From assembly GCA_028829895.1 (NCBI GenBank), contig CM054182.1, positions 4,310,501 through 4,374,500 of the forward strand: 64,000 nucleotides of DNA, read 5' to 3'. Each line of letters opens with the position of its first letter. Position 1 is the stretch's first letter. The position numbers were made by a program, and so were the translations under genes. Origin of the DNA: Sinotaia quadrata. Taxonomy: Eukaryota; Mollusca; Gastropoda; Architaenioglossa; Viviparidae. Shown in pieces: positions 3,701 through 57,600 of the stretch. Below the pieces are notes generated by a model. It had not been told where the DNA came from. It saw nothing but the letters and a program-made list of their open reading frames with translations, and did not search any database.

Positions 3701-6700
3701 TACAAGGAGCTAATGAAGCGCCGATTCTAGGACAAATAAAACCCTTTTTCCCTTTATTTCTAGCAGACACTAAAATAATGATTGACCACCAGATTCACGT
3801 CATTCATACACAGAAACAGGAGGGGACATATGATAGATGAGTGAAAGAAGAAATAGAAAAGAATGAAGTAAATAACAAACATATACATACATCAATATAC
3901 ACAAATGCACACAAATATAATCATAGCTAACCATATGGTTTGATAGTAATAGACAAACATATACATACATCAATATACACAAATATAATTATAGCTATCC
4001 ATATGGTTTGATAGTAAATAACAAACATATACATACACCAATATACACAAATATAATTATAGCTAACCATATGGTTTGATAGTAAATAACAAACATATAC
4101 ATACATGAATATACACAAATATAATCATAGCTAACCATATGGTTTGATAGTAAATAACATATACATACATCAATACACACAAATATAATTATAGCTAACC
4201 ATATGGTTTGATAGTAAGTTCAACCTAACTGACCTTTCTCGGGAAAACCTTTTTACCACTGGGAATCGGGAGAGTTATCTGAACAACGTTTTCTCCGACA
4301 GTGGCAGGATAGGCTCTGATCTTTGAGATGATTTTGGTGTGCACATAGACGGACCAAACCGTCACGTGATTAGTCGGGCTAAATATCTGGCGAATTATTA
4401 CAACCTGACCTACTAGGTGGGCCATTATTTATAATATCACCAAGATCACATCGCAGAAGGCGAGCTAACGGGTAGATGCTAAATGCGAGATCTAAGGGTT
4501 GGTCTCCTTTAACGAGCCTGAAAACGTTTTGAAGCCCTGAGAATTTAAAGTTGAATGAAACGTTGAGTGGCGCCCCCTCTACCAACACACTTTTATTAAA
4601 TATTTTATTAAATACACCTCCCACAATAAATAAATAAGTAAAATAACAAAAACGAAATTAAACTATACACTATACATGTCTTACACACATATACACACAG
4701 AGCACTCAAAAGCATAGCACCCCACTACCACCACCACCCGGATGAATTTAATTTTAAAGGATTAGATTATTTTAAGCAACTCTTAACTGTGATTGAGAGC
4801 ATTATGTAACTTGAATTGTGAAGTGAACTGCAAATGGCCAAATGTATTAATTTAAAATGTGGATTTAGTTGCATACGATTGAACACATTAAACTGAAATG
4901 TGGAGTGAGATTTGACAGAATTAACTTGAAATGTGGAGTTAGTTATGACAGAATTACCTTGAAGTGTGGAGTTATTTAAATATGGTCAAATGTATAGGCA
5001 ATAGAATGAGGGGCAGTGGGCTGATGTTAACATCTGCACGGGGTACAGATGTCCCCGACCTCCACGAGACCCATGCGGCTTTGCAGGTTAGATTTTGGAT
5101 AACCAAAGGCGAGTGTGCTGACAAATGGTACCTTTACACAATCTTTAAAGGTGCATACATATTCATCAAAATAGTTCACGCATAATGTTCAAATATTACA
5201 TGTATTTCAAATGGTATATACATAATAAGTACATGCATAACGTGAAAACCTACCGATTTTACATTTGTACAACCTCTGAATGCGCTCGACATCATTCTTA
5301 CTCATGGCGTACTGCTGACCCATTGTCACTCCCGCAGATTTCTTGATCGCCTTTGGGGTCATAGATGGGAGCGACTTGTTCAAGGCACTCATGTAGGCAC
5401 CGTAGTGCATGAGGGAGCCAAAATCATAGGAAGGTTTCATCAAGCGCATAGTTTTATTAGTCTCTTCACGAAACATTGGCCTGTCATCTGCAATAGTGAT
5501 GGAGTACACTCCCCTTGTAATAGCAAACACGCAGCAACTACACGCAAGTGAAGTGGAGATAGTTGAGGTGAGTGTATAAACATCATTTTTGAACTGCTGC
5601 TACAGTGAAGCAGAAAGTGGGATGATTTGGGTGAATAAAAAAATAATTTAGACCCACTGAAGGAGCTGAGCGAAGTGTTGGCAGCTGTGAGTAGATGAGC
5701 TTCATGGATGAATTTAAAAAATTCAATTGGGACCTACTGCTACACCTGAGTGATATGTAGACAGCTGTGAGTAGACGAGCTTCATGGATGAATTTAAAAA
5801 ATTCAATTGGGACCTACTGCTACACCCGAGTGATATGTAGACAGTTGTGAGTAGATGAGTAGGTAGCCTTGAATGGAAGACCACTGGGGAAATAAAATAA
5901 TTAATTTTCAATCTACTGCTACAGTCAAATATAGTACAGGGAGATGAGTATGATTTGGATAAGTCATAAAACATTTACCGCAAGACCTACTGTTAAAGCC
6001 AAGTATAGAGATATATGTATGATTTGGGTAAGTCATAAAACATTTACTTAAGACCTACTGTTAAAGCCAAGTATAGAGATGTAGGTATGATTCTGGGTGA
6101 ATCATAAAACATTTCCTTAAGACCTACTGTTAAAGCCAAGTATAGAGAAAAGGGAATCAGTTGCGTAAATAATATTGTAATGAGCTGTTGCTGCTAAAGC
6201 TAAGTAAAAGCAAGATCCTACTGAATAAAATTGTTGATGCTATATGATTTGAAAGAGTGGTCATCTCAGAATGTCGTATAGTTTATTGGACTGACACTGA
6301 CAAATCTTTCTCAGATGTTACATTATCCAGGCTGTGAAGCAGTAATGGCCGAAGACAATTATCTTTGACAACAGCCGATGCAAACTAATGAATTTTCATA
6401 GCATTATTAGTCACCATAACGGATAAATATATACCACTAATTAATTAATTTAGTGAATCGAGTAATGATTTTTTTTAAATGATAAAACTTTTAGAAGGAA
6501 CTTACATATCAAAGGGAGATAACGAAATAGTTCAGTGTAAATCTCAGCCTTTCTTTATGTGGAAGAAACAAACATGAATTTCTTACTTACAATTTTCTTT
6601 TGCATTAAAATCTGATTGACAATTGCATACGTTTTCAATTGTACTGAAGAGCGAGAGGTTGCTCATGTGCAGTAAACACTGAAGGGCTATTGTGTGCAGT

Positions 6701-9700
6701 AGCTATTGATAGCTATTATATACAGTAAAAACTGATGGCTATTGTGTGCAGTAGCTATTGATAGCTATTATATACAGTAAAAACTGATGGCTATTATATA
6801 CAGTAAACACTGATGGCTATTGTGTGCAGTAGATATTGATAGCTATTATACAGTAAACACTGATAGCTAATGTGTGCAGTAGATATTGATAGCTATTATT
6901 ATACAGTAAACGCTGATAGCTATTGTGTGGAGTAAACACTGATACCTATTATGAGCAGTAAACATTGATAGCTATTGTGTGTAGTAAACAACAACAGTTA
7001 ATGTGTGCAGTAAACATTGATAGCTATTTTGTGTAGTAAACATTCATAGCTATGTGTGCAGTAAACATACATAGCGACTGTGTTCAGTAAACATTGAAGC
7101 TATTGTGTGTATAAACAATGATAGCTATTGTGTGCAGTAAGCATTCATAGCTACTATGTAGTAAACACTAATAGATATAGTATGCAGTAAACATTGGTAG
7201 TTAATGTGTGTAGTAAGCATTGATAGCTATTTTGTTTAGTAAACAGTGATAGCTATTTTTGTGCAGTAAACATTGATAACATTTGTGTGCAGTAAACTTT
7301 GATAGCTTTAGTAAACATTGATAGCAATTGTGTTTAGTAAACATTGATAACTATTATGTGTAGTAAATAGTGATAGCTATTGTGTGTAGTAAACTTTGAT
7401 CACTACCATATGCAGTAAACATGAATAGCTTTAGTATATAGTAAACATTGATAACTATTGTGTGTAGTAAACATTGATAGGTACTGTGTGTAGTAAACGT
7501 TGTTTAATTTTCTTTTATATAAATATTTTGTTAATTTTCATCGGTCTTGTGTCAATTCTTATCATCTCCATTTTGCATAAAATTCATTTAATCATAGTCA
7601 TTGCGTCTGTCATCGTATCTGTCCATCTGTCCGTTTGTCTGTCTGTCCGCTTGTTTGTTGTTTGTCCGTCCTGTCTGTTTTTATATGTGAGGACTAATCT
7701 TCTGGGGGCTGAAACGAGTCAACGGAGCGATTGACCTCAAATTGTTGTGTGTTTCGTGTCGTCCATCGTAGGGGTACCAACAGAGATATGCACAGAGTAG
7801 GTGAAGGACTTTTATTAGTCAGTTGTTAGAGGTAGAGATATGCACAGAGTAGGTGAAGGACTTTTATTAGTCAGCTGTTAGAGGTAGAGATATGCACAGA
7901 GTAGGTGAAGGACTTTTATTAGTCAGTTGTTAGAGGTAGAGATATACACAGAGTAGGTGAAGGACTTTTATTAGTCTGTTAGAGGTAGAGATATACACAG
8001 AGAAGGTGAAGGACTTTTATTAGTCAGTTGTTAGAGGTAGAGATATACACAGAGTAGGTGAAGGACTTTTATTAGTCTGTTAGAGGTGGGCTTGTGTGCC
8101 TTTATAAAAAGTATGGATTCAGTGTATCGTGTCATGGACATGCGAGTATTTGTGTTGCTGTTTATCATTTACTTGTTTGACTGCCCTGGTCCCTGTGAGT
8201 TTAGAAATGAGCGCTTTATAAAAATAAAATGATTGCTATTATAAGCTATGTGCCTTGTTTGGTGAATTTGTACAAATGGCTGTGACTGTAGAAAGCAAGA
8301 ACATTGAACAAGGTCACTCGTGACAAAGACTCACGAATAGCATCACCAACACGCACCCCCATCCCCCAGTGTAACTAGGTGGAGGTAACTAAATGATGCC
8401 AGGTGTTTTAGGATTTCTGGCAAAGAAAAAAAGAGTTAAGTTCAGTGTAAATCTCAGGAGGTAACTAAATGATGCCAGGTGTTTTAGGATTTCTGGCAAA
8501 GAAAAAAAGAGTTAAGTTCAGTGTAAATCTCAGGAGGTAACTAAATGATGCCAGGTGTTTTAGGATTTCTGGCAAAGAAAAAAAGAGTTAAGTTCAGTGT
8601 AAATCTCAGGAGGTAACTAAATGATGCCAGGTGTTTTAGGATTTCTGGCAAAGAAAAAAAGAGTTAAGTTCAGTGTAAATCTCAGGAGGTAACTAAATGA
8701 TGCCAGGTGTTTTAGGATTTCTGGCAAAGAAAAAAAGAGTTAAGTTCAGTGTAAATCTCAGGAGGTAACTAAATGATGCCAGGTGTTTTAGGATTTCTGG
8801 CAAAGAAAAAAAGAGTTAAGTTCAGTGTAAATCTCAGGAGGTAACTAAATGATGCCAGGTGTTTTAGGATTTCTGGCAAAGAAAAAAAGAGTAAAGTTCA
8901 GTGGACTGTCTTACCGAGAGCGATGTTACTGAGGTGGACTCTGATGTAGTTGTCGCGGTCGTATCGGCTCTGTTCATGAAAGAAACCCAGCGCGTGGATC
9001 ATCTCATGCATGATGGCGCCCTTAAAATCGCAATCGTCGCTTACAGCGAACAATTGTGCACCTCCCATTCGTCCAACGAAGGACGCGCACCCCCTGTAGA
9101 GTTATATTTAGATCAGTCACTGTCACTCATTTTCTCAACTAGAGCCCCAGGTACAAATAATGTTTAGATCACTGCAATTTACTTTCGTCCTGACTCTGAA
9201 TGGCATTTGTATACTCATTCAGTTTCAGATCTTTACATTTAACCTACGTCCTAAATTTATTGCCATTCGTAAAGTCATTCAGTTTCAGATGTTTACTTTA
9301 ACCTGCATCCTAAATTTGAATGTCATTTGTAAAATAATTCAGTTTCAGATCTTGGCTAGTAATATTCATCCTAATTTTGGTTTACTTTTGTAAAGTCATT
9401 CAGTTGTAAATACCTATTATTAATTTGCTTCTTTATTTTGAGTGGCAATTGTGAAGTCATCCAGTTTTAGATCACAGCTATTAACTTGTATACAACTATT
9501 TTTGAAAGGCATTTGTAAGTCATCAGTTTTAGATCATTACAACTCGCTTCTTAATTGGGCTTGTGTAGCCAGCTCAGAATTATATTTTCCATTCTTGGAA
9601 ACAAATATGAGCATTTGGGCTGCTGGCAGTTTATGCCGTGTTGATTTAAGGTAAGAAATGTTGAAAGTTGTCTTTATTTACGTGGAACACACTCTATAAT

Positions 9701-12700
9701 CATTCACACTTTGTAGTTAAACTAAATAACAGCGCATATCATATTAGATGGGTTAGACACGAGAGATATTTTTTGACATTTATTTGATTTACAACGAGGC
9801 TATCAACTCTGCTGAATATAAATGGAATTACAATACAGAATACTAAAGACAATTCTGAGATTGCAGTATTCGCCTGAAGCATATTATTTAGAATTTCGCC
9901 TGTACTAAGAAATAAAGTTACTGGGGTAGAAACTTTGTGTGGTAAATAAAGTTACTGGGGTAGAAACTTTGTGTGGTAAATAAAGTTATTGGGGTAGAAA
10001 CTTTGTGTGGTAAATAAAGTTACTGGGGTAGAAACTTTGTGTGGTAAATAAAGTTATTGGGGTAGAAACTTTGTGTGGTAAATCAATGGAATGATACTTC
10101 TGAATTTTAAAGGGATACTTTGGATTTTTATGTGACCAACGCTAGTTAGCCGATTTAAGACTGATACTGACTAAAGAAGAGAAGTGACAAATGGGATAGG
10201 AAGAACTTAGGTTTTATCTAGCTACCGACAGTAAGAGAGACAATACTGACTAAAGAGAAGTGACAATTGGGATAGGAAGAACTTAGGTTTTATCTAGCTG
10301 CCGACAGTAAGTTAGACAATACTGACTAAAGAGAAGTGACAATTGGGATAGGAAGAACTTAGGTTTTATCTAGCTGCCGACAGTAAGTTAGACAATACTG
10401 ACTAAAGAGAAGTGACAATTGGGATAGGAAGAACTTAGGTTTTATCTAGCTACCGACAGTAAGAGAGACAATACGTGGGAGTCTTGATCACAGTCGTTTA
10501 ACGATCGTCGGAAATGAAATGGCGACGTGTAGTTAGCCATAAGCACTTACCTTGTTAACAATGGAAGTCAGTCCAATTATATGAACTACACTAAGAAAAC
10601 GGCATTCAGAGTTTGAATTCTCCTTGTTAACAATGGAAGTCCAATAATATGAACTACACTAAGTCCGGCATGCATCACGCTGCAGTTTGAATTCTCGTTG
10701 CTATATGAAGCTCTTTGTCGACTACAATTTTGAAATGGACTGAATTTAAAATGAAATTCGGATACATAGTCTGTGAGACATCATTTAAAATGATACACAG
10801 ACCCATGATCTGTGAAACTTTATTTAAGATGATACAAAGACTAATGGTCTGTGAGACTTACAATAAATTATACCCATAGTATATGAGATTTTATTTAGGA
10901 TTATATATAGACTATTGGTGTGTGAGAGTTACTATAAATTATACACAGAGTATATGATATTTTATTTAGAATTATATATAGACTATTGGTGTGAGTTACT
11001 ATAAATTATACCCATAGTATATGAGATTTTATTTAGAATTATATATAGACTATTGGTGTGTGAGTTACTATAAATTATACCCATAGTATATGAGATTTTA
11101 TTTAGAATTATATATAGACTATCGGAGCGAGACAATGTAGAATGAAAGGAGAATTCACTGTGTGTGTGACTTAATTTAGAAAGATAAATGGAATCGTGGT
11201 CACTGAGACTTAGCTCACTGTGAGTTCTGGAAAGCAGATCACACAATGTATATATATTATGTATTTTAACATAGTACTGACTGCTGTGATACTTTTTTCA
11301 ATAAATATTTTTAAAATACCTCACATTCCACAACAAATTCGTACTGATAACTATAGCAAGTTAAACTGACATGTGAGAAAAAGGAGAAGATCCTAAAGTT
11401 TGTTAGAGATAACTCTACAATCTTCTTATCAACATTTTGTTTACGTTAAACTGACATTTTTAATATTCTTCCATTCTGAAAGATTTGAATGATTTGCCAT
11501 GACTATTCATGAAAGAAAGGAAGGAAGGAATCTTCAGAGTTTTTATAGAAGCTCGAGGTCGGACACGGAATATTGTACATCCAAATTACCTTTAGATTAT
11601 TACATATTGTGTCTTTATTTGGAAAATGGCGAAATATCATACATCCAAATTACATTTAGATTATTAAAATTGTGTTTTAATTTGGAATATGGTATAAATA
11701 TCATACATCCAAATTACTTCTAGATTATTACAAACTATGTCTTAATTTGGAATGTGGCGGAAAAGTATTCTTAGAAAATTGCAGATTGGTTCAGTTTAGA
11801 ATGGCGTTTATGAATTTTTTTATTTTACTTTTTTTTTTTTTTTTTTTGGGGGGGGGAATATTTCAAATGGCAACTCTACGCAGGTAATTTGATATATGTG
11901 CAACTCTGTCATTAAAGTGACCCTAAATCACTTAAGAGTTCGTCAGTATTACAATATCAGTAATTTGATATATGTGCAACTCTGTCATTAAAGTGACCCT
12001 AAATCACTTAAGAGTTCGTCAGTATTACAATATCAGTAATTTGATATATGTGCAACTCTGTCATTAAAGTGACCCTAAATCACTTAAGAGTTCGTCAGTA
12101 TTACAATATCAGTAAATGGTTTTGCATGAGGACAGCATCGGTTTTTAGCGTTATAAAATAATAAATAAACCAAGTTTTCTGCTATACATATCCCCACCCA
12201 TTATTGCCAGCATATATACACATAAAGAAACCATCCATGTTACACGTCACATCACACACAAGCACACTCACAAATATGTACGCACACAGGTAGCTATAAA
12301 CTATCAAGTGCATACACATCAACTATTCACACTCTTGCCTGCATATATACACACACAAAAACCACTTGTAAACACATATGTACATATTTGCACAGAAGAA
12401 TAAATTATACACGCATATACACACACTCACCACTTAGTTTTCTGGATGTCGACGTAATCAGGCTCAGAGGTCCGTGGCACAAATGTAATGCAGTTTGTAA
12501 CATTATACCTCGTGTTTATCTCAATTTCGGCCATGGCAGTCATGATAGTGTTGTGTTGTATCACGGCTACAACACAATATGACATCAAATTCGACCATTA
12601 CAATATGTTATACAGCACACTTCAAAGACTTGACTTCATCCTTACAATGCTTGACATAATTACATTCAACAGAGATGACGCCATCCTTACAATGCTTGAC

Positions 12701-13892
12701 ACAATTTCGCATAACAGTGGTGACTTCGTACTTACAAGGCTTGACACAATTACATTCAACAAAGATAACCTCATCCTTACCATACTTGACACAATTACAT
12801 TCAACAAAGATAACATCATCCTTACAATGCTTGACACAATTACCTTCAACAGAGATGACTTCTCCTAACAATGTTTAACGCAATTACGTTCAGTAAGCTT
12901 GACTTCATCCATACAATGCTTGACACAATTGCTTTCAACAGAGATATCTTCATTTTTAAAATGCTTGACACAATTTCGTTGAACCGAGAAGACCTCATCC
13001 AATCAATGCTTGACACAATTGCATTCAGCAGAGATGACGTCATCCATACAATGTTTGGCACAATTACGTTCATCAGCGATGACCTCATCCTTATAATGTT
13101 TGACAAATTTGATTCACATATCTGTCAGGCAGCTTGTCCAGTTCTATATAGGTCACATATCTGTCAGGCAGCTTGTCCACTTCTATACAGGTCACATATC
13201 TGTCAGGCAGCTTGTCCACTTATATATATATAGGTCAACATATCTGTCAGGCAGCTTGTCCACTTCTATATAGGTCACATATCTGTCAGGCAGCTTGTCC
13301 ACTTCTATATAGATCCATAATTTTAATGCATGCCGAATAGAGATGCAGACGTTGAGATGAAAATAATTTAGTTATCAATAAATTGAGAAATAAAAAGTAT
13401 ACTAAAGAATTAATGTGGATCATCAGTAATATAACACTCACTGAAATCATTGCTGATCTTGTAAGGAACCGTTCCATTGGGCCATTTGGCGGAACTCTCG
13501 CGTCTCGCATTTCGGAACTGATAAAACAACATTGAAATAAAGTCTCTTTCTCTCTCCACCATGTCAGTAAATTTATAAGACTATGTATTTGTCTGTCTGT
13601 CTCTCTGTCTATCTACAAACAAAATGAAAGTTAGTGGAAAATAGAAACATGTACTCATGATCCATCTTAATCTTAGAAAGCTCGCTTTCCTTTCTTAACA
13701 ATATAAATAGGTCCAACAGACAATATTTACAAAGTAGCTGGGGACTAGGTTGGAGTAAGGGAGGGAATTAAATGATTGGTCATTTATTTATAGATTAACA
13801 AAACAAACAGAAATGCCAATGATAAAATAATGTCCTATACATGTACATGGAGCGTGGTCATAGTGTGTGTGTATGTTTGCGTGAGTGTGTGT

Positions 13893-13979
<87 letters not shown>

Positions 13980-16900
13980 GGCATGGATATCTGACAATTC
14001 AGGTTTTGTGGATTATCTTATCACCAAATAGTGTGTACTTCTTTGACAGACATTGAGTTAGAAGTGTACACGGGTGCTTGTGTTCGTGTAAGCTGGAAAA
14101 ATGTGTACTTCGCATTAAATACATCCCGGTGAAAGTGAAACATTAAGTTATAAACGCACAGCTGGCTATGGACTCCATTACAGTAGTAGTGTTCCATAAT
14201 TACTCTAATTTAATTATAAAAATAATTATTCACTGAAAGTGCTCACGCTTTGAAAACATATCGGTCTGTGACAGATTCAAGAGCTAAATGATTATATTTA
14301 AATTTAACATATTAATATTATTGTCGAATTTCGCTCATCACACTGGTATTTTCTTTTGAATATTCACTGGTGTTGTCATGATTATCAATTCTGTTGTCAG
14401 TAACTACTATTATTTTCCTTATTAACATTATTGTCGAATTTCGCTCATCACACAGGTATTTTCTTTTGAATATTCACTGGTGTTGTCATATTATCATTTC
14501 TGTTGACTTAATTACTATCATTTTCATTATTAACACTACTTCTATTGATATCAAAGTCACTGCTTTTACTGTCAGTCATAATTAAAACATGTCATCATCA
14601 AAATCAATACTGCTGTTGTACAATAACAATTTTGTATCTTATTCAATAGTGCTTTTATCATAACTATTACTTTTATTGTCATCACTATCATCCATTGTGT
14701 TATCAAGTCACTAGTCTCAAGTCAGTATTTTAGATGTCATAGACACTATTTGTTATCATCATTATCACTGTTTTTATTGTTGTCATAGTTATAATTCCTT
14801 TCATTATAATCATTACTTTTGGTGTATTTTAGACAACTTTGTTGTTTTAAGAAATTACAACTTTTATAACAGTCACCGCCAATATACTTTGTCTTGTTCG
14901 TGTTCTTTTTCCTGTAAAAATGCCCAATTATCAAAAATATTATGTCTTACCTTTTTTCCCGTAAAAGTTACAATTATCAAAAATATTATGTCTTACCTTT
15001 TTTCCCGTAAAAGTTACAATTATCAAAAATATCATGTCTTACCCTTTTTCCTGTAAAAGTGTACAATTATAAAAATATCATGTCTTACCTTTGGTAGAAT
15101 AATGTCTCCTTCAACGACTCCTGAAAACACAAGGCAAAATCATAAATCACCGTGTGTTAGAAATCCATCATAATGTTATACATTTATTTGCTGTATTGTG
15201 CAATTTTAAATAAACTGTCGCTGAGAAGCTATTGGTATTGAAGTGTGTATGTTTATGCCAGCCCGACGCTATCTAGGAGGAAATATATGGAAATGAAATA
15301 CATTTGTCAATGGCAGCCTCAGGCGTTTGAAGGAAAGTATAGATATATGGATATGAAGTGTTTTTGTCAACGCCAACACAAAGTGTTGATGATAAGGTTT
15401 AGGTATATAGACATAAAGTTCTTTTGTCAATGGCAGCCTGATGCAATCAATGAGAAAGTATTAAGTACATTCAGTGAAGTATATTTGTCAGTGCCGGCAT
15501 AAACTGTCGATGAAAAGAGTACTTTGACATGCACTTAAGTATATTTGTTAGTGCCGGCATAAACTGTCGCTGAAAAGAGCACTTGGACATGCACTACACT
15601 TGTCAAAATCAGCCAAAAGTTGTTGACGAAAAAATCAAGGTATCTGGGCACAGTGTATATTTGACAGTACCAGTCTAAAACATTGCTGAGAATCTTGGAC
15701 ATGAAATATATGTATGCTGGACAATGCAAGGCAAACGTTTCACTGAGAAAGTTCATGAACTTTAACCTAAAGATATGTGCCAATATCGGTTGCGTGTTGC
15801 GATGTTGAGAGTACATGAACTTGAACTTGAACTAATTATATACATATATTTTCAATGCCAATACATATATTTTATATAATGCCAATGCCAATACATATAT
15901 TTTCAAAAGTTACTGAAGAGAAATTAAGAAAACTGCAAGTGCCAGAAGAAAGATGACGAGGAAGCGGATGATTTAGACAAGAACTGTATTTGTCAGTGCC
16001 ACTCTATACTTTTTGATTGCCAATACAAATATTAAATACAAAAATGTACTTTATTTCCAAATGGCAGTCTAGAGATGACGAGTGAGAAAATATTTGGATA
16101 CATACTTCATACAATGGAAGACTTCTTCAGTTGGCAATTAAAGTAGATGACAGTGAGAAAATATTTGGACACATACTTCATATAATGCAAGCCTTCAGTT
16201 GGCAATTAAAGTAGATGACAGTGAGAAAATATTTGGACACATACTTCATACAATGCAAGACTTCAGTTGGCGATGAATCAAAGAAACGGATGTGTGTCAG
16301 ATGATTTTGTCGGACTTTGATCCCATTTACTTAGTAAATTAAAATTAAGTAAAAGAATTTTTTTAAATATCAGTTTTGGATAATTTGGAGACGATTTGAG
16401 TCTTAAGTGGTATGTCTTTGAAGAGGTTTGTTTGTAGCGTGTGGTGTGAAAATTACTGTAAGCGTAAACTAAGTCTTACTAACCTTTGATTTTTCTACCT
16501 CCTGAATACACTGCAAAATTTAAAAATAAAAAAACAAACTATTAAAAATAAAACAATCAAAACCGAGAAACGACAATAATTAACAAGAAAAGAAAATCAT
16601 ATGCTATTTTTCTTAAATTATTATTATTATTATTGACATTTTCATCTCCCGTATCTTTACAAAATAATCATATGCTATTTTTCTTAAATTATTATTATTA
16701 TTATTGACATTTTCATCTCCCGTATCTTTACAAAATAATCATATGCTGTTTTTCTTAAATTATTATTATTATTATTATTGACATTTTCATCTCCCGTATC
16801 TTTACAAAATAAACAATAGCTTTTGCTAAATTGAATGTAATTTGTACTTACAGTTATTTCTTTCGATTCTCTGCAAAATACAGCCAAAGTACAACTGTTA

Positions 16901-20280: not shown

Positions 20281-20339
20281 TAATTACAGGGACAAGCAGC
20301 CTTTCTTCATTGTATGATATGAATCTTCTGGTTTACTGA

Positions 20340-22480: not shown

Positions 22481-22539
22481 AAAAGGAATGAAGTTAGTGC
22501 ATTTCATATATTTTATTCCATCCAACCCATCACGTGTTC

Positions 22540-22770: not shown

Positions 22771-22799
22771 AAAAGATTATTTGACATCACTATTTCCAT

Positions 22800-24889
22800 G
22801 AAAAAGGATCAAGTTCCAAGCAACCTAGGGATGCAGATCTTAGAACACCCATTATCTAAAGTAGCTGTCTCAGAATTAGATCAAATTGGAGACTTAGGTC
22901 TTAGATCCATATCAATGATGCCAATCATGTTGTTAAACCCAGTGATACACTGAAATACAAAATATACATGAGATTTATTCTATCCTCTCTCTCTGTCTTG
23001 TACTTTCTCAAACTTACTTCTCTGCAAAGCAATGCATTATCCAACTACACATGAGACCAATATAATACACGAACATTGATATATAATTGAAATGAAAATC
23101 CAGCATCACAATAAAGTCACTTAACATACTAAACACTTTCTGCTTTGCATTAAAAGAATAGGTAATGCAATAAATATTTCTAAGTCTAAAATTTCAGTCT
23201 ATCAGCCAATTAACCTGCCAAGTTATCCCGGTACTTTACCTACAGACCAGAGTTCTCTCGTAGTGGCGAGCAAGAATTTTTACCCAGCGTAGAAACTAGT
23301 ATGGAGTTAATTTATGAAGAGCAATGTAGCTATTATTTTAAAGAAACAAACTAAAGTCGCTAGTTACCATTTTACAGACGGAATCTATTTTAATGAACAA
23401 TTCCAACTAACTACAGTTTCTTTACAATTTTAACCAATCCAATCATATTACTCTATATTACACGAAACAGTTATTTTCCTGATTTCATTGTGTGTGGGGA
23501 TGGGGGGGGGGGCGGGAGGATAGCTTTTGGGGGAGAGTAACACCTGGAGTAAATAGAGTTGTATTGAATGATACTTAAGAATTGAGTAAGTACAGCTGTA
23601 TTGGATGAGACTAACAAATTGAGTAAGAGCTGTTTTACTGAAACTGTGCCATGTAAGTGAATATCCAATAATTCATGATATTTTAAATTTAATAATAATA
23701 ATTTAAATAGTAATAATAGTTCTACTTTATTACTTTAAACTTCTATTAAAGAAGTGATGTTAAACTTGTTCCAACTTCTGACATTTTAATTAAACTCTGC
23801 CTCAGGTTTTCCCACTCCCTTAGTTATCTGCTGTCACACACCACTCTTCACTATTTATGTCACCTAAAAGACTACTGGTGAAACGTTTGGGCCGGTTTTG
23901 TTTCACACACACAAACACCACACTTCACTATTTATATGTCACCTAAAAGTCTAATGGTGAAGCGTTTGGGCCATTTTTGTGTTGCATACCACTTTTAACT
24001 AGTTAGATGTCGCCACAAACGAATCTGGAGAGGAAATTTAGTAAGATTGGAAATTACGTTTATAAAAATTAAAATCTCGCACAAACTAGGAAAATTAATA
24101 CGGAGTATAATAGTATACATGCATTTTCTTTGTAAACCCGCCTGAATTATAAATCTTTTTATTAGTTTGTCACTTAATTAATTGTTTGAAGGAATTAACT
24201 TTAATGTTATTTATTTAACTTAAATTTAATTTTATATTTCGTAACGTTTTCGAATTACCTAGGAATGCGCCATTAAAGTTAATGTTCCTGACGTTTTCAC
24301 AATTACCTGTCGAGTAAATTATTTGTCCTCGTTGTTTACATATCTGTTTCCGCTTTTTCACTGTTGAATGGAAACACAGGAGTAATTTAATACCCAAACA
24401 CGCCATGCTGGAATATGGACTTGGTAAATGCTTCAGGTTGTCAAATGGAATTTCATTGTACGGAATAATATGTCATTGCATTGCGAATATTCATAGACAT
24501 TCGCATTTTAAGCCAGATTCCAGACACTCAGACGAACCTGACGCCGAGATTACATAGATTTTGTCTAAAACAAAGGGAACGAACTACATTGACTTATTCT
24601 GATAAATTTATACAGGCAATTTATATTTGCCTTAGAAAGTGTGGGTATGCATTGAAGGAAGTTAATGATACCGAACAAAAACTGCAGATATATGCAAGAA
24701 AATTCAAGATACAAAAAAGAATGAATTGAGTTGCTTTTTGTTTGACTGTATTAGATGTGCTTTTGTATGGTAGTTATGGCTAGTACAGAATAGATACCAA
24801 AATTTGGGTTTAGAAAAGCAAATATTCAAACAAACAAACAAACAAACCACCTTTTCTCCAACACTGATTTTTTCCATATTTTTATTGCA
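22800..24889. other. Intergenic, no gene recognised
   Basis: AT-rich DNA with a homopolymer G run at about 23504 and a two-copy ~82-bp repeat (cactatttat...cacctaaaag) at 23845-23980. Open frames here lack recognisable motifs. Confidence 0.5.
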
Positions 24890-42600: not shown

Positions 42601-45600
42601 TGATTCGGTTAGGACCAAACTATTTGTAACTTGTTAGATAATTGAAAATTAATAATTGTTCTTTCTCTTGTTTTCTTTTCTTTTTCTTTTATTGTTATAT
42701 AAAGTTTATTGTTAAATTTCCATTAGTGTTGTGCTAAATTCATTGTCATTCTTGTCTAGTATGATTTTATAAGTGTCATCGTCACGTCTGCCTAACGTCT
42801 GTCTTGAGTCTGTCTTTGTTTTATCTGTCTGTCTGTCTTATCTGTGAGGAATTGTTTCCTCTGGGGGCTCAATACGAGTTGCCGGGAGTGACGTCCTCAA
42901 ATTCTTGTCCGTCCTAGATACCCGTATTTAGGGGGGTACCAACAGCTATCCATTTGGTTTGATAGTAAATATCAAAATAACAAACATATACATACATCAA
43001 TATACACAAATATAATCATAGCTATCCATTTAGTTTGATAGTAAATAACAAACATATACATACATGAATATACACAAATATAATCATAGCTAACCATATG
43101 GTTTGATAGTAAATAACAAACATATACTTACATCAATATACACAAATATAATCATAGCTAACCATATGGTTTAATAGTAAATAACAAAATAACAAACATA
43201 TACATACATCAATATACACAAATATAATCATAGCTATCCATATGGTTTGATAGTAAATAACAAACATATACATACATCAATACACACAAATATAATTATA
43301 GCTAACCATATGGTTTGATAGTAAATAACAAACATATACATACACCAATATACACAAATATAATTATAGCTAACCATATGGTTTGATAGTAAATAACAAA
43401 CATATACATACACCAATATACACAAATATAATCATAGCTAACCATATGGTTTGATAGTAAATAACAAACATATACATACATGAATATACACAAATATAAT
43501 TATAGCTAACCATATGGTTTGATAGTAAATAACATATACATACATCAATATACACAAATATAATTATAGCTAACCATATGGTTTGATAGTAAGTTCAACC
43601 TAACTGACCTTTCTCAGCAAAACCTTTTTACCACTGGGAATCGGGAGAATTATCTGAACAACGTTTCTCTGACAGTGGCAGGATAGGCTCTGATCTTTGA
43701 GATGATTTTGGTGTGCACAAAGAAGGACCAAACCATCACGTGGTTAGTCGGGCTAAATATCTGGTGAATTATTACAACCTGACCTAGTAGGTGGGCCATT
43801 ATTTATAATATCACCAAGATCACATCGCAGAAGGCGAGCTAATGGCTAGATGCTAAACGCGAGATCTAAAGGTGGGTCCGCTCTGTCTGATGTTTCAAAG
43901 CCCTGAGAACTTAAAGATGAATGAAATGTTGAATGGCACCATCTCGTACCACCAGTTTTATTAAATATTTTATTAAGTACAAAATTAAGCAAACTATACA
44001 CTATACATGACCAGCACACATACACAGAGCACTAAAAAAACACACAGCATGCACACATATACACACTACCCCCTTCCCCCAGTGATAAAATTAATTTTAA
44101 AGGATTAGTTTATTTTTGGCAACTCTTAACTGTGACTATGAGCATTATGCATATTGAATTAAGAAGTGAACTCCAAACGGTCAAATCTATTAATTTAACA
44201 TGTAGATTTAGTTGCATACGATCGAACATATTAAACTGAAATACGGAGTTAGATTTGACAGAATTAACTTGAAATGTGGAGTTAGATTTGACAGAATTAA
44301 CTTGAAATGTGGACTTCGATATGACAGAATTAACTTGAAATGTGGACTTCGATATGACAGAATTAACTTGAAATGTGGACTTCGATATGACAGAATTAAC
44401 TTGAAATGTGGACTTCGATATGACAGAATTAACTTGAAATGTGGAGTTATTTAAATATGATCAAACGTATAGGCAAAATTAACATAAATGTTAGCACCCT
44501 AACAAATACATTAAATGTGGAGTTATTTAAATATGATCAAACGTATAGGCAAAATTAACATAAATGTTAGCACACTAACAAATACATTAAATGTGGAGTT
44601 ATTTCAATATGATCAAACGTATAGGCAAAATTAACATAAATGTTAGCACACTAACAAATACATTCAATGCAACCTGTAATAACATCAGATCAGAAAACCA
44701 TTTGAGCGCACACACATACACACACACACACACACTACCATATTAATAAATTCATACACCTACTCTTCAATCTGTGATAAGAGACCAGAGTATTTCTTGC
44801 TGCCAGGTTGGCAAGTTAAGGATGACAATATCAATCAACGATTACTAGTGGCATAGTATACACAAAACTGATTATCATACTCACAAATACATAATATAAA
44901 TCAACTATTACTACTGTCATAGAATACACAAAACTGATTATCATACTCACAAATACATAATCTTTAAACGATGTATGCATGCTCAACAAACAGCCTATAC
45001 ATAAATTGTAAACTATTACTTCGCACAATCTTCATGAAAGAGCGTACATATTCATCAAATAATACACGCATAATATTCAAATAGTACATACATAAACATC
45101 AAATGGATCATACATAATTGTCAAATGGTACATGCATAATATTCAAATAGTATATGTATTTCAAACAGTACATGCATAATGTATTACCTACCGATTTTAC
45201 ATTTGTACAACTTCTGAATGCGCTTGACATCAAGCTTACTCATGGTGTAATGATGACCCAATACCACTCCCGCATATTTCGTGTCATCCTTTGGGGATAT
45301 AAATGGGCGCGATTTGTCCGCGGAACCGTCGTAGGCACCATAGTGCATGAGGGAGCTAAAATCATAGGGAGTTCCCAACAAATCCATAGTAAGATTAGTC
45401 TCTTTATAATACTTTGGTCTGTCACCTGCAATAGTGATGGAGTACACGCCCCTTGTAATGGTAAACATGCAGCAACTACAGACAGGTGAAGTGTAACTAG
45501 TTGTAGATAAATGAGTGAATGAACATAATTTTAGACTGGCTGCTAGAGGCAAGTGAAGCAGATGATGGGATGATTTGGGTGAATACACAATTTTAGACCC

Positions 45601-48600: not shown

Positions 48601-51600
48601 TATTTGAAAATTGATAGGCTGTTAATGTGTACTGTAACACTGGTACACCTTTCATGTTTTGACAATTGATACGGCCATTAAAATTAACATTTACACATAA
48701 TTAATTACAGTCCTTTAATGTTTTGAAAATTTATAGGGCCATTAATATTTACACATAATTAATTACAGTCCTTTCATGTTTTGAAAATTGATAGGGCCAT
48801 TAACATTTACACATAATTAATTACAGTCCTTTAATGTTTTGAAAATGGAGGGCCAATAACATTTACATGTATTGTAAAATTGATCATTAGTCCTTTCATG
48901 TTTTAAAAATTGACAGGTCATTAACATTTATATGTATTATGAAACTGATCAATTACAGTCCTTTCATGTTTTAAAAATTGACAGGCCATTAACATTTATA
49001 TGTACATGTATTGTGAAACTGATTGATTACTGTCCTTTCATGTGTATTTATAAACAGATGGGCTATCAAATTGTTTTGAAATACTTTTTCACACGTGTTC
49101 AAGAGCAGTCGACTTTTTTACTAGGATTGAGACATAATAATTTGTTATGTCATTTTTCAGGCAGCTAGTAAGCTACATCATGTTTTAATGAGATGATTAG
49201 AGCTGGAATAAGTTAAACTTGACAGTGTGAAAGATGTTAGGGATCACTTTGTGATTGACAAAATTACAGACAACATGCTCACCAGCACTTTTCACTTATG
49301 TTAAGGGCAAAAGAAATATATTAATTAAAATTTACTGCATTGAAAACTGACAATTTCTGTTGAGTATGCATTGCCCATTTTAAAAAATATTGTTTCTCAG
49401 GATTCAGATAGAAATCTAGCTTCTCAATTCAGAGTTCTTGGGAGGGAGAGGGTGTCTATCTATTAAGTCCAACACACAGACAGAATACCAGCAGCATAAT
49501 CATGCACACACACAAAACACAAATATCAATTATAAAATCTCTTTAAATTTAAAGAAATCGACTGTCATTTGCATTTCAAAGCAATCATAAATCAATGTTG
49601 GGCTCTTTTACCATACCAATATATTTTTAGGTCCGAAACAAATATGACCATGTATTTAGCTTTTTTGGGATGTCTTGTGTGGAGATAATCACTCCTAACA
49701 CATGCCTAGTCAAAAACTCCCTCTGGATTTCCACTGTCAGTAAGTGCATCTGAGTGGAGTAATTAACCGATGTCACTGTCAGATATGAGTGTAATTCTGG
49801 AGATAACTAACTGATACCAGTGTTAGTGTTTAAGTGAAGCTATGTGGAGATAACTAACTGATACCAGTGTTAGTGTTTAAGTGAAGCTATGTGGAGATAA
49901 CTAACTGATACCAATGTTAGTGTTTAAGTGAAGCTATGTGGAGATAACTAACTGATACTAATGTTAGTGTTTAAGTGAAGCTATGTGGAGATAACTAATG
50001 CCACTGTCAATGTGTAAGTGTCTCTATAGAGATAACCAAATAATGTCACTGTGTGTGACAGTGTAAGTGTAACTGTGGAGATAACTAAGTGATATCACTC
50101 TCAGTATGTAAGTAGGTGGAGATAACTTACTGATGCCTCTAACTAAGTGGAGAGTACCACATGATGCCACATGTGTAGGTATAACTAGGTGGAGATAACT
50201 GATGTAACTGTCCATGTGTAAGTTTAACTGTAGAGATAGCTAAGTGATGGCACAGTCCATGTGTAAGTATAACTATGTGGATATTAAATAATTTAATTAT
50301 GCCAGTGTCTGCTTGTAAATGTAGCTAGATGGAGAAAAAAATTATGCCATTGTCCATGTACAATTAGGTGTAGATCACTAACTGATGCCACTATTCATGT
50401 GTAAGTGTGTAACCCTGTTACTATGAGTTCAATGTTTTGTTTACTTGATCAATGCCTCCATGTGTGTACATGTCTCTGTGTGTGTATTACAGGAATCAAT
50501 GATGTGATGACTGGTGTGCGAAGGTGTGAATGAATCTGTTGATTGGACTTGAGTGTTCCAGCCACGCGGCATCCAGACTGAGAGATCAGCCCTCAGTTTT
50601 CAATCTAAGCATTTCCAAAATTTCCCAGGCTGTAATCCTTAAAATAGGGGTCAGAACTTTGCAAGTGAGACAAGACAGACAAGAAAGAGACAAAGAGATT
50701 ACAATGTAGGGATTCAACAGCCTTAGGGCCGCCAGTAGAGAAATACAGGAAAAGATGACATTTTCATCATACTAGTATAAATGGTGGACTTTTGTGCATT
50801 TATAAAAAGTATGGATTCAATCTATCGTGTATTGTGCCATGGGCATGTGAGCATTTTTGCTACTGTTTATCATTTACTTGTTTGACTGCCCTGGTCCCTG
50901 TGAGTTCAGAGATGAGCGCTTTATAAAAATAAAATGATTGCTATTATAAAGAAAGCATGTGCACAGTTTGATGAATTTGTACAAATGGCTGTGGATTGTA
51001 GAAGACAAGAACATTGAACAAGGATACTTGTGACAAAGACTCATAAATAGAATCACCAACATGCACCCCCATCCCCCAGTGTGACTAGGTGGAGGTAACT
51101 AAATGATGCCATGTTTTAGGATTTTTTGCAAAGAAAAAAGAGTAAAAGTGCACTGGCACTGCCTTACCGACAAAGATGTTTTTTGTATGGAGATGGATGT
51201 ATCTGTGGCGGTCATATCGGTTAATTTCGTGGAAGAAACCTAGCGCGTGAATCAACTCGTGTATCATGACGGCCTTCACTAAACAGTGACGGCCTACATA
51301 CAACGGTTGTGCACCTCCCACTCGTCCAATAAAGGATCCGCACCTGTAAAGTTATATTTAGATCAGTCAATGTAACTAATTTTTTCAACTAGAGTGGCAG
51401 GTACAAATAATGTTTAGATCATTGCAATTTACTTTCGCACTAATTCTGAATGGTTTTGTAAAGTCATTCAGTTTCAGATCTTTACATTTAACCTGTGTCC
51501 TAAATTTTAATGCCATTTGTAAAATCAGTTCTTTTAAACTGGAATCCTAAATTTGAATAGCCTTTGTAAAATCATTCTGTTTTTTAAGACCAGCATCCTA

Positions 51601-54600
51601 AATTCTAATGCCATTTGTAAAATCATTCAGTTTTGTTTTTAACCAACATCCTAAATTAGAATGGTGTTTGTAAAATCATTCAGTTTTGTTACATTTGCAC
51701 TTAACCTGCATCATACATTTGAAAGGCATTTATAAAATGATTAAGTTTCAGATCTTGGCTAATAATATTCATATTAATTTTGATTTACTTTCGTAAAGTC
51801 ATTCAGTTGTAAATACCTACTATTAATTTGCTTCCTAATTTTGAATGGCATTTTTGTGAAGTCTATTAACTTGTGTTCAACTACTTTTGAAAGGAATTTG
51901 TAAAGTCATTAGTTTTAGATCATTACAACTTGCATCTTAATTGGGCTTGTGTAGCCAGCTCAGAATTAGATTTTCCATTCTTGGAAACAAATATGAGTAT
52001 TTGGGCTGCTGACAGCTTATGCCGTTTTGATTTAAGGTAAGAAATGTTGAAAGGTGTCTATTTATGTGAAACACACTCAGATGTAATCATTCACACTTTG
52101 TAGCAGAACTAAATCACAGCGCATATCATAGATTGCTTAGACATGAGAGATATTTTTTATCATTTACTTTTTACAACGAGGCAATCAACTATGTTAAATG
52201 AAAGTAGAATTACAATGAAAAATTCTAAAGACATAATTTGATTTTATGAGACTGCAGTACTACCCTGGAGCATTTTAATATTTAGAATTTCACCTGTACT
52301 AAGAAATAAAGTTACTGGGGTAGAAACTTTGTGTGCTAATAAATGGAAATTAAACTTCTGACTATTAAAGGGATACTTTGGATTTTTATGTGACCAACGC
52401 TAGTTAGCTGATTTAAGACAGCTACTGACTAAAGAAGAGAAGTAACAATTGGGATAGGAAGAACTTAGGTTTTATCTAGCTACCGGCAGTAAGAACTAAG
52501 ATAGACAATATGTGGGAGTCTTGATCACAATCGTTTAATGATCGTCGGAAATGAAATGGCAATGTGTAGTTAGCCATAAGCAATGTTAACAATGGAAGTC
52601 CAATGATATGAACTACAGTAAGAAAATGGCAATATGTAGTTAGCCATAAGCAATGTTAACAATGGAAGTCCAATGATATGAACTACAGTAAGAAAATGGC
52701 AATGTGTAGTTAGCCATAAGCAATGTTAACAATGGAAGTCCAATGATATGAACTACACTAAGAAAATGGCAAGGTCCGGCAAGCACAATGCTGCCGTTTG
52801 AATTCTCATTGCTATATGAAGCTCTTGATCAACTATAATTCTATGGACTGAATTTAAAATGAGATTCGGATACACAGTCTATGAGAAATCATTTAAAATG
52901 ATACAAAAACCCACGGGTCTGTGAGGCATAGTGTAGATTGATACATAGACCATAGTCAATGAGACTTTATTTAGGATGATACAAAGACTAATGGTGTGTG
53001 ATACAATAAATTATACCCATGAGATTTTATTTAGAATATATATAGGCTATTGGTGTGTGAGACAATGTAGAAAGACAAGAGAATCCACTGTACATGGGAC
53101 TTAATTTAGAATGATATGTGGATCTGCGGTCATTAAGATTTTAGCTCACTGTGAGTTCTGGAAAGCAGATCCCACAAAATATATATTATGTATTTTAACA
53201 TTCCACAACAAATTTGTACTGAGCTATGCAAGTTAACCTGACATGTGAGTAAAAAGGGAAGATCCTAAAGTTTGTTATGATAACTCTACTATCTTGTTAT
53301 CAACATTTTGTTACATTTAATGTAAACAGTATTCTTCTGTTGTGAAAGATTTTAATGATTCGCCATGACTATTCAGTTAGAATGGAAGGAATCTTATTTT
53401 AGAAGCTTGAGGTCGGAGACTGAATATCGTACATCCAAATTACCTTTACATTATTACAAATTGTGTCTTAATTTGGAAAATGGTGTATATATCATATTAT
53501 TACAATGTGTGTCTTCATTTGGAATATGGCGTAAATATCAAACATCCAAATTACTTTTAGAATATTACAAATTGTGTCTTAATTTGGAATATGGCTTAAA
53601 TATCAAACATCCAAATTACTTTTAGATTTTTACAAATTGTATCTTAATTTGGAATATGGCGTATATATCATATTATTACAATTTGTGTCTTCATTTGGAA
53701 TATGGCGTAAATATCATACATACAAATTATTTCTAATTATTCGAAATTGTGTTTTAATTTGGAATATGTCGTCAAAATGTTTTTAGAAAATTGCAGATTG
53801 GTTTAGTTTTAGAATAGGAATTATGAACTTTTTTTAATAATTGCAATTGACAACTACGCAGGTAATTTGATATATGTGCAACTCTGTCATTAAAGCGACC
53901 CTAAATCACTTAAGAGTTCGTCAATATTACAATATCAGTACATGGTTTTCCATGAGGACACAATCAGTTTTCAGCGTTATAAAATAATAAATAAACCAAG
54001 TTTTCTACTCTACATATATCCACCCATGCATGACAGCATGTATACACATAAAAGAACCATCCATGTTAAACATCACATCACGCACAAGCACATTCACACA
54101 TACATACACACATAAGTAGCTATAAATTACCAAATGCATACAAATCAACTATTCACATGTGTGCATATGCACACAAAGAAACCATTTGCAAATACACGTA
54201 TGTACATATTTGCACAGTTGCATGAATTATATGCATATACACATGCATGCACACACTCACACACTCGATGGTTGGAAGTCGATGTAATCAGCCTCTGTGG
54301 TCCGTTCCACAAATGTAATGCAGTTTGTAACATTATTCCTCGTGTTTATCTCAATTTCAGTCATGGAAGTTCTGAGAGTCTTGTTCTCGGTATTGGCTAC
54401 AACACAATGTGACGTCACATTCATTTATTACAATATAATATACAGTCACACTCAATGAACTTGACTTCATCCTTGCAACTCTTGACACAATTAAGTTCAA
54501 CAGAGTTGACCTCATCCTTAAAATGCTTGACACAATTGCATTCATCTGCAATGACCCTGCCGTTACAATGTTTGGCACAGATACATTCAAAAAGATGACT

Positions 54601-57600
54601 TTATCCTCACAATGCTTGACACAATTACATTCAACAAAGATGACCTCATCCTTACAATGCTTGACACAATTGCATTCAACAAAGATGACCTCATTCTTAC
54701 AATGCTTGACACAATTGCATTCAACAAAGATGACCTCATTCTTACAATGCTTGACACAATTACATTCAACAAAGACGACCTCATTCTTACAATGCTTGAC
54801 ACAATTACATTCAACAAAGATGACCTCATTCTTACAATGCTTGACACAATTACATTCAAAAAGATGACTTCATTCTTACAATGCTTGACACAATTACATT
54901 CAACAAAGATGACTTCATTCTTACAATGCTTGACACAATTACATTCAACAAAGATGACCTCATTCTTACAATGCTTGACACAATTACATTCAAGAAAAAT
55001 GACCTCATTTTTACAATGCTTGACACAATTGCATTCAACAAAGATGACCTCATTCTTACAATGCTTGACACAATTGCATTCAACAAAGATGACCTCATTC
55101 TTACTATGCTTGACACAATTGCATTCAACAAAGATGACCTCATTCTTACAATGCTTGACACAATTACATTCAAGAAAGATGATCTCATCCTCATCCTTAC
55201 GTTCAACAGAGATATTTATACATAAGAAATCATCTCATCTTTATAATGTAATGTTAATTACTTTATCTCTATAATGATATTGTGACAAATATTTCCACCC
55301 CTTCATTAATTTGTCACTTGTTTCCCTACACCTATATTTATGATATACTTTTGTGATGACATTTATAGAGCACTTTATTTGCATTTACTGATATTTATGC
55401 AGCAAGATTTAAAAGTAGCTGTTGTACAAGCACGTTAATCAAGCATGCAATGAGGAAATCACAACTTTCCTCCAAAACAGATTAATAGACATTCCTGAAG
55501 TAGTATAATAATTAATTAATAGACACTGGTGTCATTCAATAGTCTATGATCCATTGAATGCACGAGTCCACCTTAAATCTTGTTATAGAAAAATGGCTTA
55601 TCAAATGATGCAAGCATTTCTGAAAAGCTAGCTAATTAGGCCAACCAATGACCACCTACTGGCCAACTGCAGCTAACCAATAGCCACATACTAGCCAACT
55701 GTAAGTGACCAATGGGTATTAAGGGAATACAGAAGAAAACTTATTGAGGAGAGCTATCATTTTGTCATTTTGCCAAGAATTTTGCTCGCAGTAAAATGTG
55801 TTTTCTCTTGTCACTCTCCATTACTGATTGCTTGCTTGCTGGAGATTAGCTCTCCGTTCATCACTGACACACTTAGAGCATATTTTGTGCTAGTGAGATT
55901 GACACTTGTGTCAGCCTGATTGATTTCATGCAGGAGATTATCTCTCCATTCATCCTGTGTTTATCTATGCTAGTTTTCGGTATTAACAAGCTTTGCATTT
56001 GACACTTGTGCATGCAACGTTAACAAAGCAACAGTTTTATCTACTAGTTTTCAACATTTATTGAACTTTAACAGCTTTTTATAATTATTTTACAAGTTTT
56101 ATCAACAACAAATAATTTACGCTACCTAAACACACTGCTGACCGGAAGTAGACAATAACAAATTTGAATGCTAGAGGAAAAATTCAAACTTGACTCATGT
56201 ATCAGTCACGCAGCTTGTCCAGTTCTGTATAAGTCTATAATTTTAATGCATGCTGAATAGAGACAAACACATGTGATAAGAATAACCTAGTTATCAATAA
56301 AATGAGAAATAAAAAGTACACTAAAGAATTAATGTGGATCATCAGTTAAAAGAATACTCACAGAAATTATTGCTGATGACATAAGGAACCGTTCCATTGG
56401 GCCATCGGTAGTACCTACCGCGTATTGCAGTTCGGAGCTGTTAAAATAATATTGAAATAAAGTCTCTTTCTCTCTCCGCCATATGTCAGTCAATCAATTT
56501 ATCTACCTATCTATCTATCTATCTATCTATCTTTCTATCTATCTATCTATCAATCTATCTATCTATCTGTGTAATATAATTGTATAGATTTACAATAATA
56601 ATTGTGCTTCAATTTATTTAACATGTAAAGCTTATAAGTTAATATTTGATAGACAGACAGATAGATAGATAATCATCTCTATCTCCTCCTTATATATCTA
56701 TCTACAAACATAATTAAAGTTAATGGAAAATAGAAACATGAACTCATGATCCATCTTAATCTTAAAAGGCTTGCTTTCTTTTCATAATACTACAAATAGT
56801 TAGAGAGACAAGATAGATCGTGTGACGGAATAAATTTTGCCTATTTTAATTTCTAAACTTAATTGTTATATAAATTGTTAAATGTCAAAGAGACCCGACC
56901 TTGGGCACTGCTTATGATGATATTTTGGTAAGTGTCAAGAGTTTGAGTAAACAACTCAGGTGGAAAAAATGCACTATTAAAAACAAATCACGCGGAGTGT
57001 TCTAGAATCTTCATGTGTGCTACTCAACACACCACATGGAATGTTCAAAATAATCTTTGCGAATTCTCCAGACCAAATTCACACCTCAATTTTCACAATA
57101 TTGGCTCTCAAACAGAATTCATGGACATCAACTAACAGCAACACTTTTCTGATATATTTAACGATAAAGTTGGATACAAACACCAATGTAATCCGGTAGA
57201 ATACAGTACTCACTGCAATCTGAAGCAGATTAAAACATCAAAGAAAATAAGTGCAATCCTCTATGTAAAAGTCAAGTTAAGTCAGTGCTAATTTCATCTC
57301 GAAACTTCTTTGTCCCTTTCACACATTCTTAACTTACAAATCCTGCAACAATATTAATTAGCCCGATACACACACAGCATATGAAATATAGAATCGATCA
57401 AAATTCACAAGTATAATGAACAAGTATAAGACTATTAGTCAGAAAAATTAGTCATCCACTTGGAACTGGTTTGGATTACATCAGCAAGTTCTAGCATATT
57501 CTCCACCTGAGTTGTTTACTCTAAAAATATCATGGCAAGCAGTACCCAAAGTTGGGTCACGTTAACATTGGGAACAAATACATAATTATTAAGTTTAGAA

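Follow-up and report, generated by a model that had tools for sequence, protein, structure and literature searches.

The stretch of DNA analysed here (64,000 nucleotides, positions 4,310,501–4,374,500 of contig CM054182.1 of the gastropod Sinotaia quadrata, hereafter the window) contains two paralogous protease genes, A and B, whose exons and introns have diverged to different degrees. They belong to a group of five tandem genes (g1, g2, A, B, and C) on the minus strand of contig C6 around the window; gene A leaves the window at its low end, and gene C is located beyond its high end. Judging from the sequences, A, B, and C arose recently within this five-gene array of predicted secreted zymogen proteases with a meprin-like combination of an astacin and a MAM domain. 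The genes encode, in order, a signal peptide (exon 1), a propeptide EGD motif (exon 4), the astacin domain (exons 5–8), the MAM domain (exons 9–11), and a stop codon (Table 1); exon 11 of g1 falls beyond the sequence covered. An astacin-family search of the 984-Mb genome gave at least 53 exon-wise matches, the longest of which comprises 89/189 positions. Four genes (h1–h4) form a second cluster on the plus strand 1.4 Mb from the array, and more matches are found at other C6 sites and on contigs C7, C1, C2, C4, and C5.

Table 1. Exons of genes A and B, with positions in the window
Feature	Positions	Strand	Basis or remark
Gene A exon 1, signal peptide (MRCLWILFVITSCMTYA...)	17936..18001	-	ATG, hydrophobic stretch, donor GTGAGC; counterparts in all five genes
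Gene A exon 4, propeptide end with EGD motif (VVEGDIILPK)	15089..15120	-	matches YFEGDIELPK of P0154 (Littorina); AG/GT borders
Gene A exon 5, astacin domain start	13442..13517	-	splice sites
Gene A exon 6	12431..12566	-	splice sites
Gene A exon 7, zinc-binding motif HEMIHALGFFHE	8915..9093	-	splice sites
Gene A exon 8, Met-turn SLMHY, astacin domain end	5254..5487	-	splice sites
Gene A exon 9, first MAM exon	589..729	-	exons 10 and 11 outside the window
Gene B exon 1, signal peptide	60499..60564	-	counterpart comparison, five genes
Gene B exon 4, propeptide EGD motif (IVEGDIILRK)	59172..59203	-	counterpart comparison, five genes
Gene B exon 5	56362..56437	-	splice sites
Gene B exon 6	54261..54396	-	splice sites
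Gene B exon 7, zinc motif HELIHALGFFHE	51168..51343	-	splice sites; 14/15 polarised B/C differences on the B side
Gene B exon 8, Met-turn	45192..45425	-	splice sites
Gene B exon 9, MAM domain	36818..36958	-	Pfam MAM
Gene B exon 10, MAM domain	33589..33836	-	Pfam MAM
Gene B exon 11, MAM end and stop codon	27512..27610	-	

Exons 5–8 of A and B are bordered by consensus splice sites on the minus strand. An earlier note on this DNA had placed them between positions 5254 and 56437, and both limits are exact; the MAM exons 9–11, which follow exon 8, lay outside its description. Exon 7 of A contains an additional codon. Pfam Astacin (PF01400) matches A and B with 174.3 and 166.3 bits, respectively (cut-off 22.5), and Pfam MAM matches them with 76.1 and 85.7 bits, well above the cut-off. 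The stop codon comes directly after the MAM domain in B (exon 11) and, outside the window, in A. No MATH/TRAF, EGF-like, or transmembrane part was found after MAM, and thus the proteins are not meprins sensu stricto. Counterparts of exons 1 and 4 were identified in all five array genes (the signal peptides were judged by eye, and exon 4 carries VEGD in all five). A pattern search for the propeptide motif gave nothing, and the exon 4 motif was recovered only through comparison with homologues; FxGD in the propeptide is the aspartate switch of astacins. Exons 2 and 3 were not located in the array genes, so the propeptides are incomplete.

The HExxHxxGFxHE zinc motif, the S[LI]MHY Met-turn, the shared cysteines, and the reading frame are preserved in 5/5 array genes, which confirms for the whole array what the earlier note had described for A and B. 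Neither internal stops nor frame breaks occur in exons 5–11 of g2, A, B, and C or in 337 codons of g1. The RxDRD motif after the zinc site, given as an astacin-family motif in the excerpted text of PMC9848320, is present in g1, g2, and A, and reads RYDRH in B and C with the final aspartate replaced by histidine. The enzymes are predicted to act as active secreted proteases.

When exons 5–8 of A and B are codon-aligned, they differ at 17/75, 32/138, 53/174, and 49/234 bases, that is, 151/621 (24%), in agreement with the approximately 152/620 of the earlier note; over all mature exons, 233/1107 bases differ. The note had found only about 15 synonymous changes. Exactly 15 are present in the 118/207 codons that keep their residue, but this raw count overstates the ratio of nonsynonymous to synonymous divergence (dN/dS, omega) because the 15 changes fall on only 80.9 synonymous sites (0.185). 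Path-averaged Nei–Gojobori counting (NG86) of the same exons gives 30.3/140.5 synonymous and 120.7/480.5 nonsynonymous changes (dS 0.254, dN 0.306), and the resulting omega is 1.21 (bootstrap 0.81–1.96). Across the ten pairs of the five genes, NG86 omega of these exons ranges from 0.79 to 1.49.

The introns of A and B differ at 0.145 (introns 5–7) or 0.148 (introns 5–10, 10,457 bp) unmasked, and once tandem repeats are masked, the divergence is 0.114 (6,583 bp aligned out of 10,887 that are comparable). In 120-bp segments flanking exons 5–11, 198/1566 bases differ (0.126). The introns are thus clearly below the exons, as had been claimed, though the 8–14% given for adjacent intron DNA is slightly low beside exons 5, 7, and 8 (12–21%). 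Introns with tandem repeats masked were used as the clock; unmasked introns were dropped, since tandem arrays raised the B/C divergence from 2.7% to 5.7%. Tandem repeats make up 26% of the 204-kb region, where long-period arrays fill introns and spacers. Arrays in the window are located at 8381–8903 (76 bp × 6.9 at 99%; its end is 12 bases away from A exon 7), 24868–27519 (about 99 bp × 26), and 54462–55191 (45 bp × 16). The aligner was checked by simulation, in which 25% intron divergence was measured as 24.3% with 98% coverage; it is good to 0.25–0.30, and coverage drops beyond. Alignability bias as the cause of the low intron divergence was rejected for B/C, given the 89% coverage described below, and is unlikely for A/B, judging from the simulation.

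The numbers of nonsynonymous (N) and synonymous (S) changes expected under the mutation spectrum of the introns, with CpG context taken into account, were calculated for 6 of the 10 possible pairs, and N exceeds the intron rate in 5 of the 6. B/C is the cleanest pair for this excess. Its introns differ at 365/13,327 bases (2.7%; 13,393 of 15,049 comparable bases aligned, 89%), and its exons have N of 58.0 vs 24.9 expected (2.3-fold, P = 1e-8) and S of 10.0 vs 9.7. The older pairs show some synonymous excess as well: N is 186.8 vs 100.2 (P = 1e-14) and S 46.2 vs 37.4 (P = 0.10) in A/B, 180.4 vs 97.7 and 49.6 vs 36.1 in A/C, and 194.5 vs 124.8 and 63.5 vs 46.8 in g2/A. The B/C excess stops at the splice sites, with 68/1110 differences in all exons vs 37/1662 in the 120-bp flanks (Fisher P = 2e-7). 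The boundaries can be followed in exon 7 (18/176; flanks 1/120 and 1/120), exon 8 (12/234; 1/120 and 1/120), exon 9 (11/141; 0/120 and 3/120), and exon 10 (14/248; 3/119 and 2/109).

The possibility that B and C are misplaced alleles of one locus was judged unlikely from the identity pattern inside and beyond the gene. The exon 5–6 block is 94% identical and the 3 kb preceding exon 5 are 98% identical, and identity falls, among the matches listed, to about 72–88% beyond the gene on both sides. The first exon of C (C6 near 4411925) should also be noted. It is the same as that of A over 50 bases and has 6 differences from that of B, all of them amino-acid changing; from about 60.3 kb inward (window 60564–60295), C matches B at 94%. 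Exon 1 of C is thus like A, although C is like B further inward, which suggests that a breakpoint, from duplication or crossover, is located within the gene.

Relative rates were compared with ten homologues (P0149–P0158, the best 10 of 55 matches, two of which are near-copies from Nucella). Their identity is 0.49–0.54 to g1 and g2 and 0.44–0.49 to A, B, and C. Private changes in A, B, and C are roughly twice those in g1 and g2. With 10/10 homologues, both B and A have more private changes than g1 (P < 0.05 in 9 and 8, respectively). Tajima tests, which are not independent across the ten homologues, gave P < 0.05 with nine for C/g1, seven each for B/g2 and A/g2, and none for g2/g1 or A/B. At the 131 columns invariant in the ten homologues, departures number 23 in g1, 23 in g2, 31 in A, 43 in B, and 43 in C. 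The nearest named relatives of g1 within the same best 10 are from the caenogastropods Nucella (P0149 and P0151), Batillaria (P0150), Babylonia (P0152), and Littorina (P0154), at 50–54% identity. These proteins likewise consist of astacin and MAM, and the four that are not partial have an FEGD propeptide motif and comprise 418–431 amino acids; P0152 is labelled "meprin A subunit beta-like" and P0154 "hatching enzyme 1.2-like". The caenogastropod homologues are closer to g1 and g2 than to A, B, and C. Together with the COX1 result given below, these relatives point to a gastropod, most likely a caenogastropod, as the source of the DNA.

Maximum-likelihood codon models (F3x4, best of three topologies) were then applied to 369 codons of the five genes. 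Among the site models, M1a/M2a gives a 2ΔlnL of 43.06 and places 43% of codons at omega 2.8; in 40 data sets simulated under M1a, this statistic reaches a maximum of 8.50 with a 95% point of 6.52 (nominal 5.99). M8a/M8 gives P = 2.7e-11 for all exons, with 44% of codons at omega 2.8, P = 1.5e-9 for the catalytic exons alone (35% of codons, omega 3.8), and P = 0.001 for the MAM exons alone. In the catalytic fit, 26 codons have a naive empirical Bayes (NEB) probability above 0.9, none of them in the zinc motif or the Met-turn. The all-exon fit has 69 codons at NEB 0.9, including the variable x of GFxHE. When multi-nucleotide substitutions are allowed, the support from the site test is weaker but stands (P = 0.0013 for all exons and 0.0054 for the catalytic exons).

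These results are probably best explained by diversifying selection on A, B, and C, although the gene-wide ratio does not show it. Several observations weigh against it. The codon models were fitted by our own numpy code, not codeml. The one-ratio model M0 gives an omega of 1.12 for the five genes, which is not different from 1 (2ΔlnL 0.89), and allowing double and triple substitutions improves this fit by 41 log units and lowers omega to 0.86. Gene-wide dN/dS was rejected as proof of positive selection, since omega is not above 1. The free-ratio model gives no improvement over one ratio (P = 0.20). By exon, omega is 1.46, 1.08, 0.74, 1.94, 0.59, 1.61, and 0.61 in exons 5–11, and only exon 8 departs from 1 (P = 0.019, uncorrected for seven exons). 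The A/B intron alignment reaches 60% of the comparable sequence. In B/C, exon 5 is unchanged (0/76), and exons 6 (7/136; flanks 6/120 and 4/120) and 11 (6/99; 6/120 and 7/118) are barely above their flanks. The g1/g2 pair has no excess (N 101.3 vs 115.1 expected, S 37.7 vs 45.6). In g2/B, S is raised (78.4 vs 50.0) together with N (219.6 vs 133.3), and in exon 7 of A/B both are raised alike, S to 14.9 vs 6.5 expected (2.28-fold) and N to 38.1 vs 16.4 (2.32-fold). Because of this synonymous excess in A/B exon 7 and g2/B, part of the exon excess is not due to selection at the protein level.

The second cluster serves as a control, but its youngest pair adds a further point of this kind. Over exons 7 and 8 (132 codons), h1–h4 are under the usual constraint (omega 0.32–0.49) in 5/6 pairs. 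In the youngest pair, h2/h3 (C6:5824001-5828300 and 5863621-5869000), these exons differ at 26/396 bases (6.6%; N 20.0/302.8, S 6.0/93.2), and intron 7 differs at only 0.019 over 2,015 bp. This pair is not explained by protein selection because its excess over the intron is as large at synonymous as at nonsynonymous sites. The earlier note had taken exons evolving faster than introns as a signature of diversifying selection. The excess is real, but it is insufficient proof alone, because h2/h3 and exon 7 of A/B show a synonymous excess too. Of the two outcomes that the note had named as contradicting its proposal, dN/dS is indeed not clearly above 1, whereas intron divergence is clearly lower than exon divergence. 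The proposal is thus partly supported, through the site models, the intron-calibrated expectations, and the relative rates, and not through a gene-wide dN/dS above 1.

The alternative that survives best, although unlikely as the main cause, is exon-limited gene conversion, in which diverged copies overwrite the exons, which alone are still alike between older paralogues, and spare the introns, so that young duplicates differ more in their exons, synonymous sites included. The values for A/B exon 7 and h2/h3 given above are as expected from it, and so is the distribution of the B/C changes. When these were polarised by the state found in most of A, g1, and g2 (58 polarised, 10 further not polarisable), exon 7 had 14 changes assigned to B and 1 to C, and exons 8 and 9 together had 4 and 15, respectively; this clustering by exon and gene is significant by permutation over six exons (P = 0.001). 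On the other hand, the synonymous sites of B/C, taken over all exons, have changed at the intron rate, and the site test survives without exon 7 (M1a/M2a 2ΔlnL 35.07, P = 2.4e-8). When B exon 7 was searched against the genome, only B and C among the 7 matches were above 74% identity, so that no living donor was found, and the astacin-family genome search contained no single long match that would represent a processed copy. The 26 h2/h3 differences are scattered rather than clustered (17 with h2 = h4, 6 with h3 = h4, and 3 with neither). Exon-limited conversion may contribute to the exon 7 differences. A more specific form, in which the exon bursts ending at splice sites (B exon 7, C exons 8–9, and h2/h3) result from copy-in of an exon-only template, either spliced RNA/cDNA or a paralogue with similarity confined to exons, and feed selection, is improbable.

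Relaxed constraint, under which redundant duplicates drift with omega near 1, is more improbable still. An M0 omega equal to 1 within error and the g1/g2 ratio of N to expectation (0.88) agree with it, but drift would not raise the nonsynonymous change of B/C to 2.3 times the intron rate. Moreover, a third to nearly half of the codons are at omega 0–0.14 in M1a and M2a, and the frames are intact throughout the exons covered. The class of strongly constrained codons, together with the retained frames and catalytic residues, bears out the earlier view that this is not pseudogene drift. That the introns are homogenised or constrained and the exons evolve at the neutral rate is hardly credible: a synonymous/intron ratio of 1.24–1.57 in A/B, A/C, g2/A, and g2/B is in its favour, but the ratio is 1.03 in B/C and 0.83 in g1/g2, and the introns differ much in length and contain long tandem arrays, which would be unexpected of constrained DNA.

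Under diversifying (positive) selection, the A and B/C lineages would have been driven apart in the mature enzyme after duplication, with the introns giving the neutral rate. About 40% of codons would favour amino-acid change (omega about 2–3), and the zinc site, the Met-turn, and the shared cysteines would be fixed. The selected trait may be the range of substrates that the enzyme cuts, or its evasion of substrate-side inhibitors, after secretion into the foregut or digestive tract. The MAM domain, a dimer contact in meprins, may be changing as well; it may pair the proteins as in meprin beta (PMC9848320, excerpt). A foregut or digestive enzyme is tentatively the likeliest role, at somewhat less than even chances; a reproductive role is rather unlikely, and a role in defence slightly more so. 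Because relatives are found both in grazers, such as Littorina, and in predators, a venom role is not implied.

In squid, astacin-like metalloproteases (ALSM)/myosinase have a MAM domain and function in the digestive gland. These enzymes are molluscan astacins (PMC9848320, excerpt) and are likened to the array proteins here by description, not by sequence. The astacin and MAM domains of vertebrate meprin alpha and beta align end to end with the array proteins, whereas the TRAF/MATH, EGF, and transmembrane parts of those meprins are missing from the array genes. A likeness is also found in another gastropod, the vampire snail Colubraria reticulata, for which the excerpted text of PMC4460706 reports 33 meprin-like contigs and an astacin-MAM protein overexpressed in the salivary gland and mid-oesophagus. 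As in the array, its proteins have a signal peptide, astacin then MAM, and a stop with no further meprin domains; they are known from transcripts, whereas the array is described from gene structure and introns. In the same excerpt, they are not tested for selection. Conus salivary glands commonly contain astacins, according to an excerpt of PMC10730640 that does not state MAM. Snake three-finger toxin genes with ASSET are also comparable in that introns are alike and exon segments distinctly different among duplicates (PMC2474615, excerpt). ASSET is, however, segment switching in a different protein, whereas the differences here are spread over exons and the catalytic residues are kept.

Two observations are unrelated to the protease exons. 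The segment 22464–22375, between the genes, has a translation 77–97% alike in three other copies and a shorter partial match in a fourth. It was rejected by eye as an exon, having no splice sites and a stop in one copy, and is perhaps regulatory or a repeat. In addition, the genome has 27 COX1 matches, five of which are full-length on large nuclear contigs (including G000:C5:54616573-54617913). Each of the five has 9–12 TGA, which encodes Trp in the mitochondrial code, and no TAA or TAG; translation of one of them under the invertebrate mitochondrial code gives a protein with 94% identity to a cluster of gastropod COX1. By their reading frames, the five are intact-looking nuclear copies of mitochondrial DNA. 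Another COX1 (G000:C26:15244-16578), on a 6.2-Mb contig, is only 47% identical to the gastropod-like copy and presumably flatworm-like in appearance; this contig may belong to a trematode parasite or be a contaminant.

The pattern of the array is known from venom genes, and the astacin-MAM family is a new case of it; no earlier selection test on gastropod astacin-MAM genes is among the matches listed, which are largely outside subscription journals. A count of synonymous codons by eye makes the case look stronger than it is, as the gene-wide dN/dS is near 1. With the introns as an internal clock, the array nevertheless offers a clean case in which young duplicates of a secreted snail protease change their protein faster than neutral DNA, at about twice the rate of the adjacent non-coding sequence, and it provides a contrast within one genome, since the sister cluster h1–h4 is mostly under ordinary constraint. 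The array can also be used to test which factor drives the astacin-MAM proteases of snails, whether diet, parasites, or gametes, and whether exon-limited conversion feeds such diversification.

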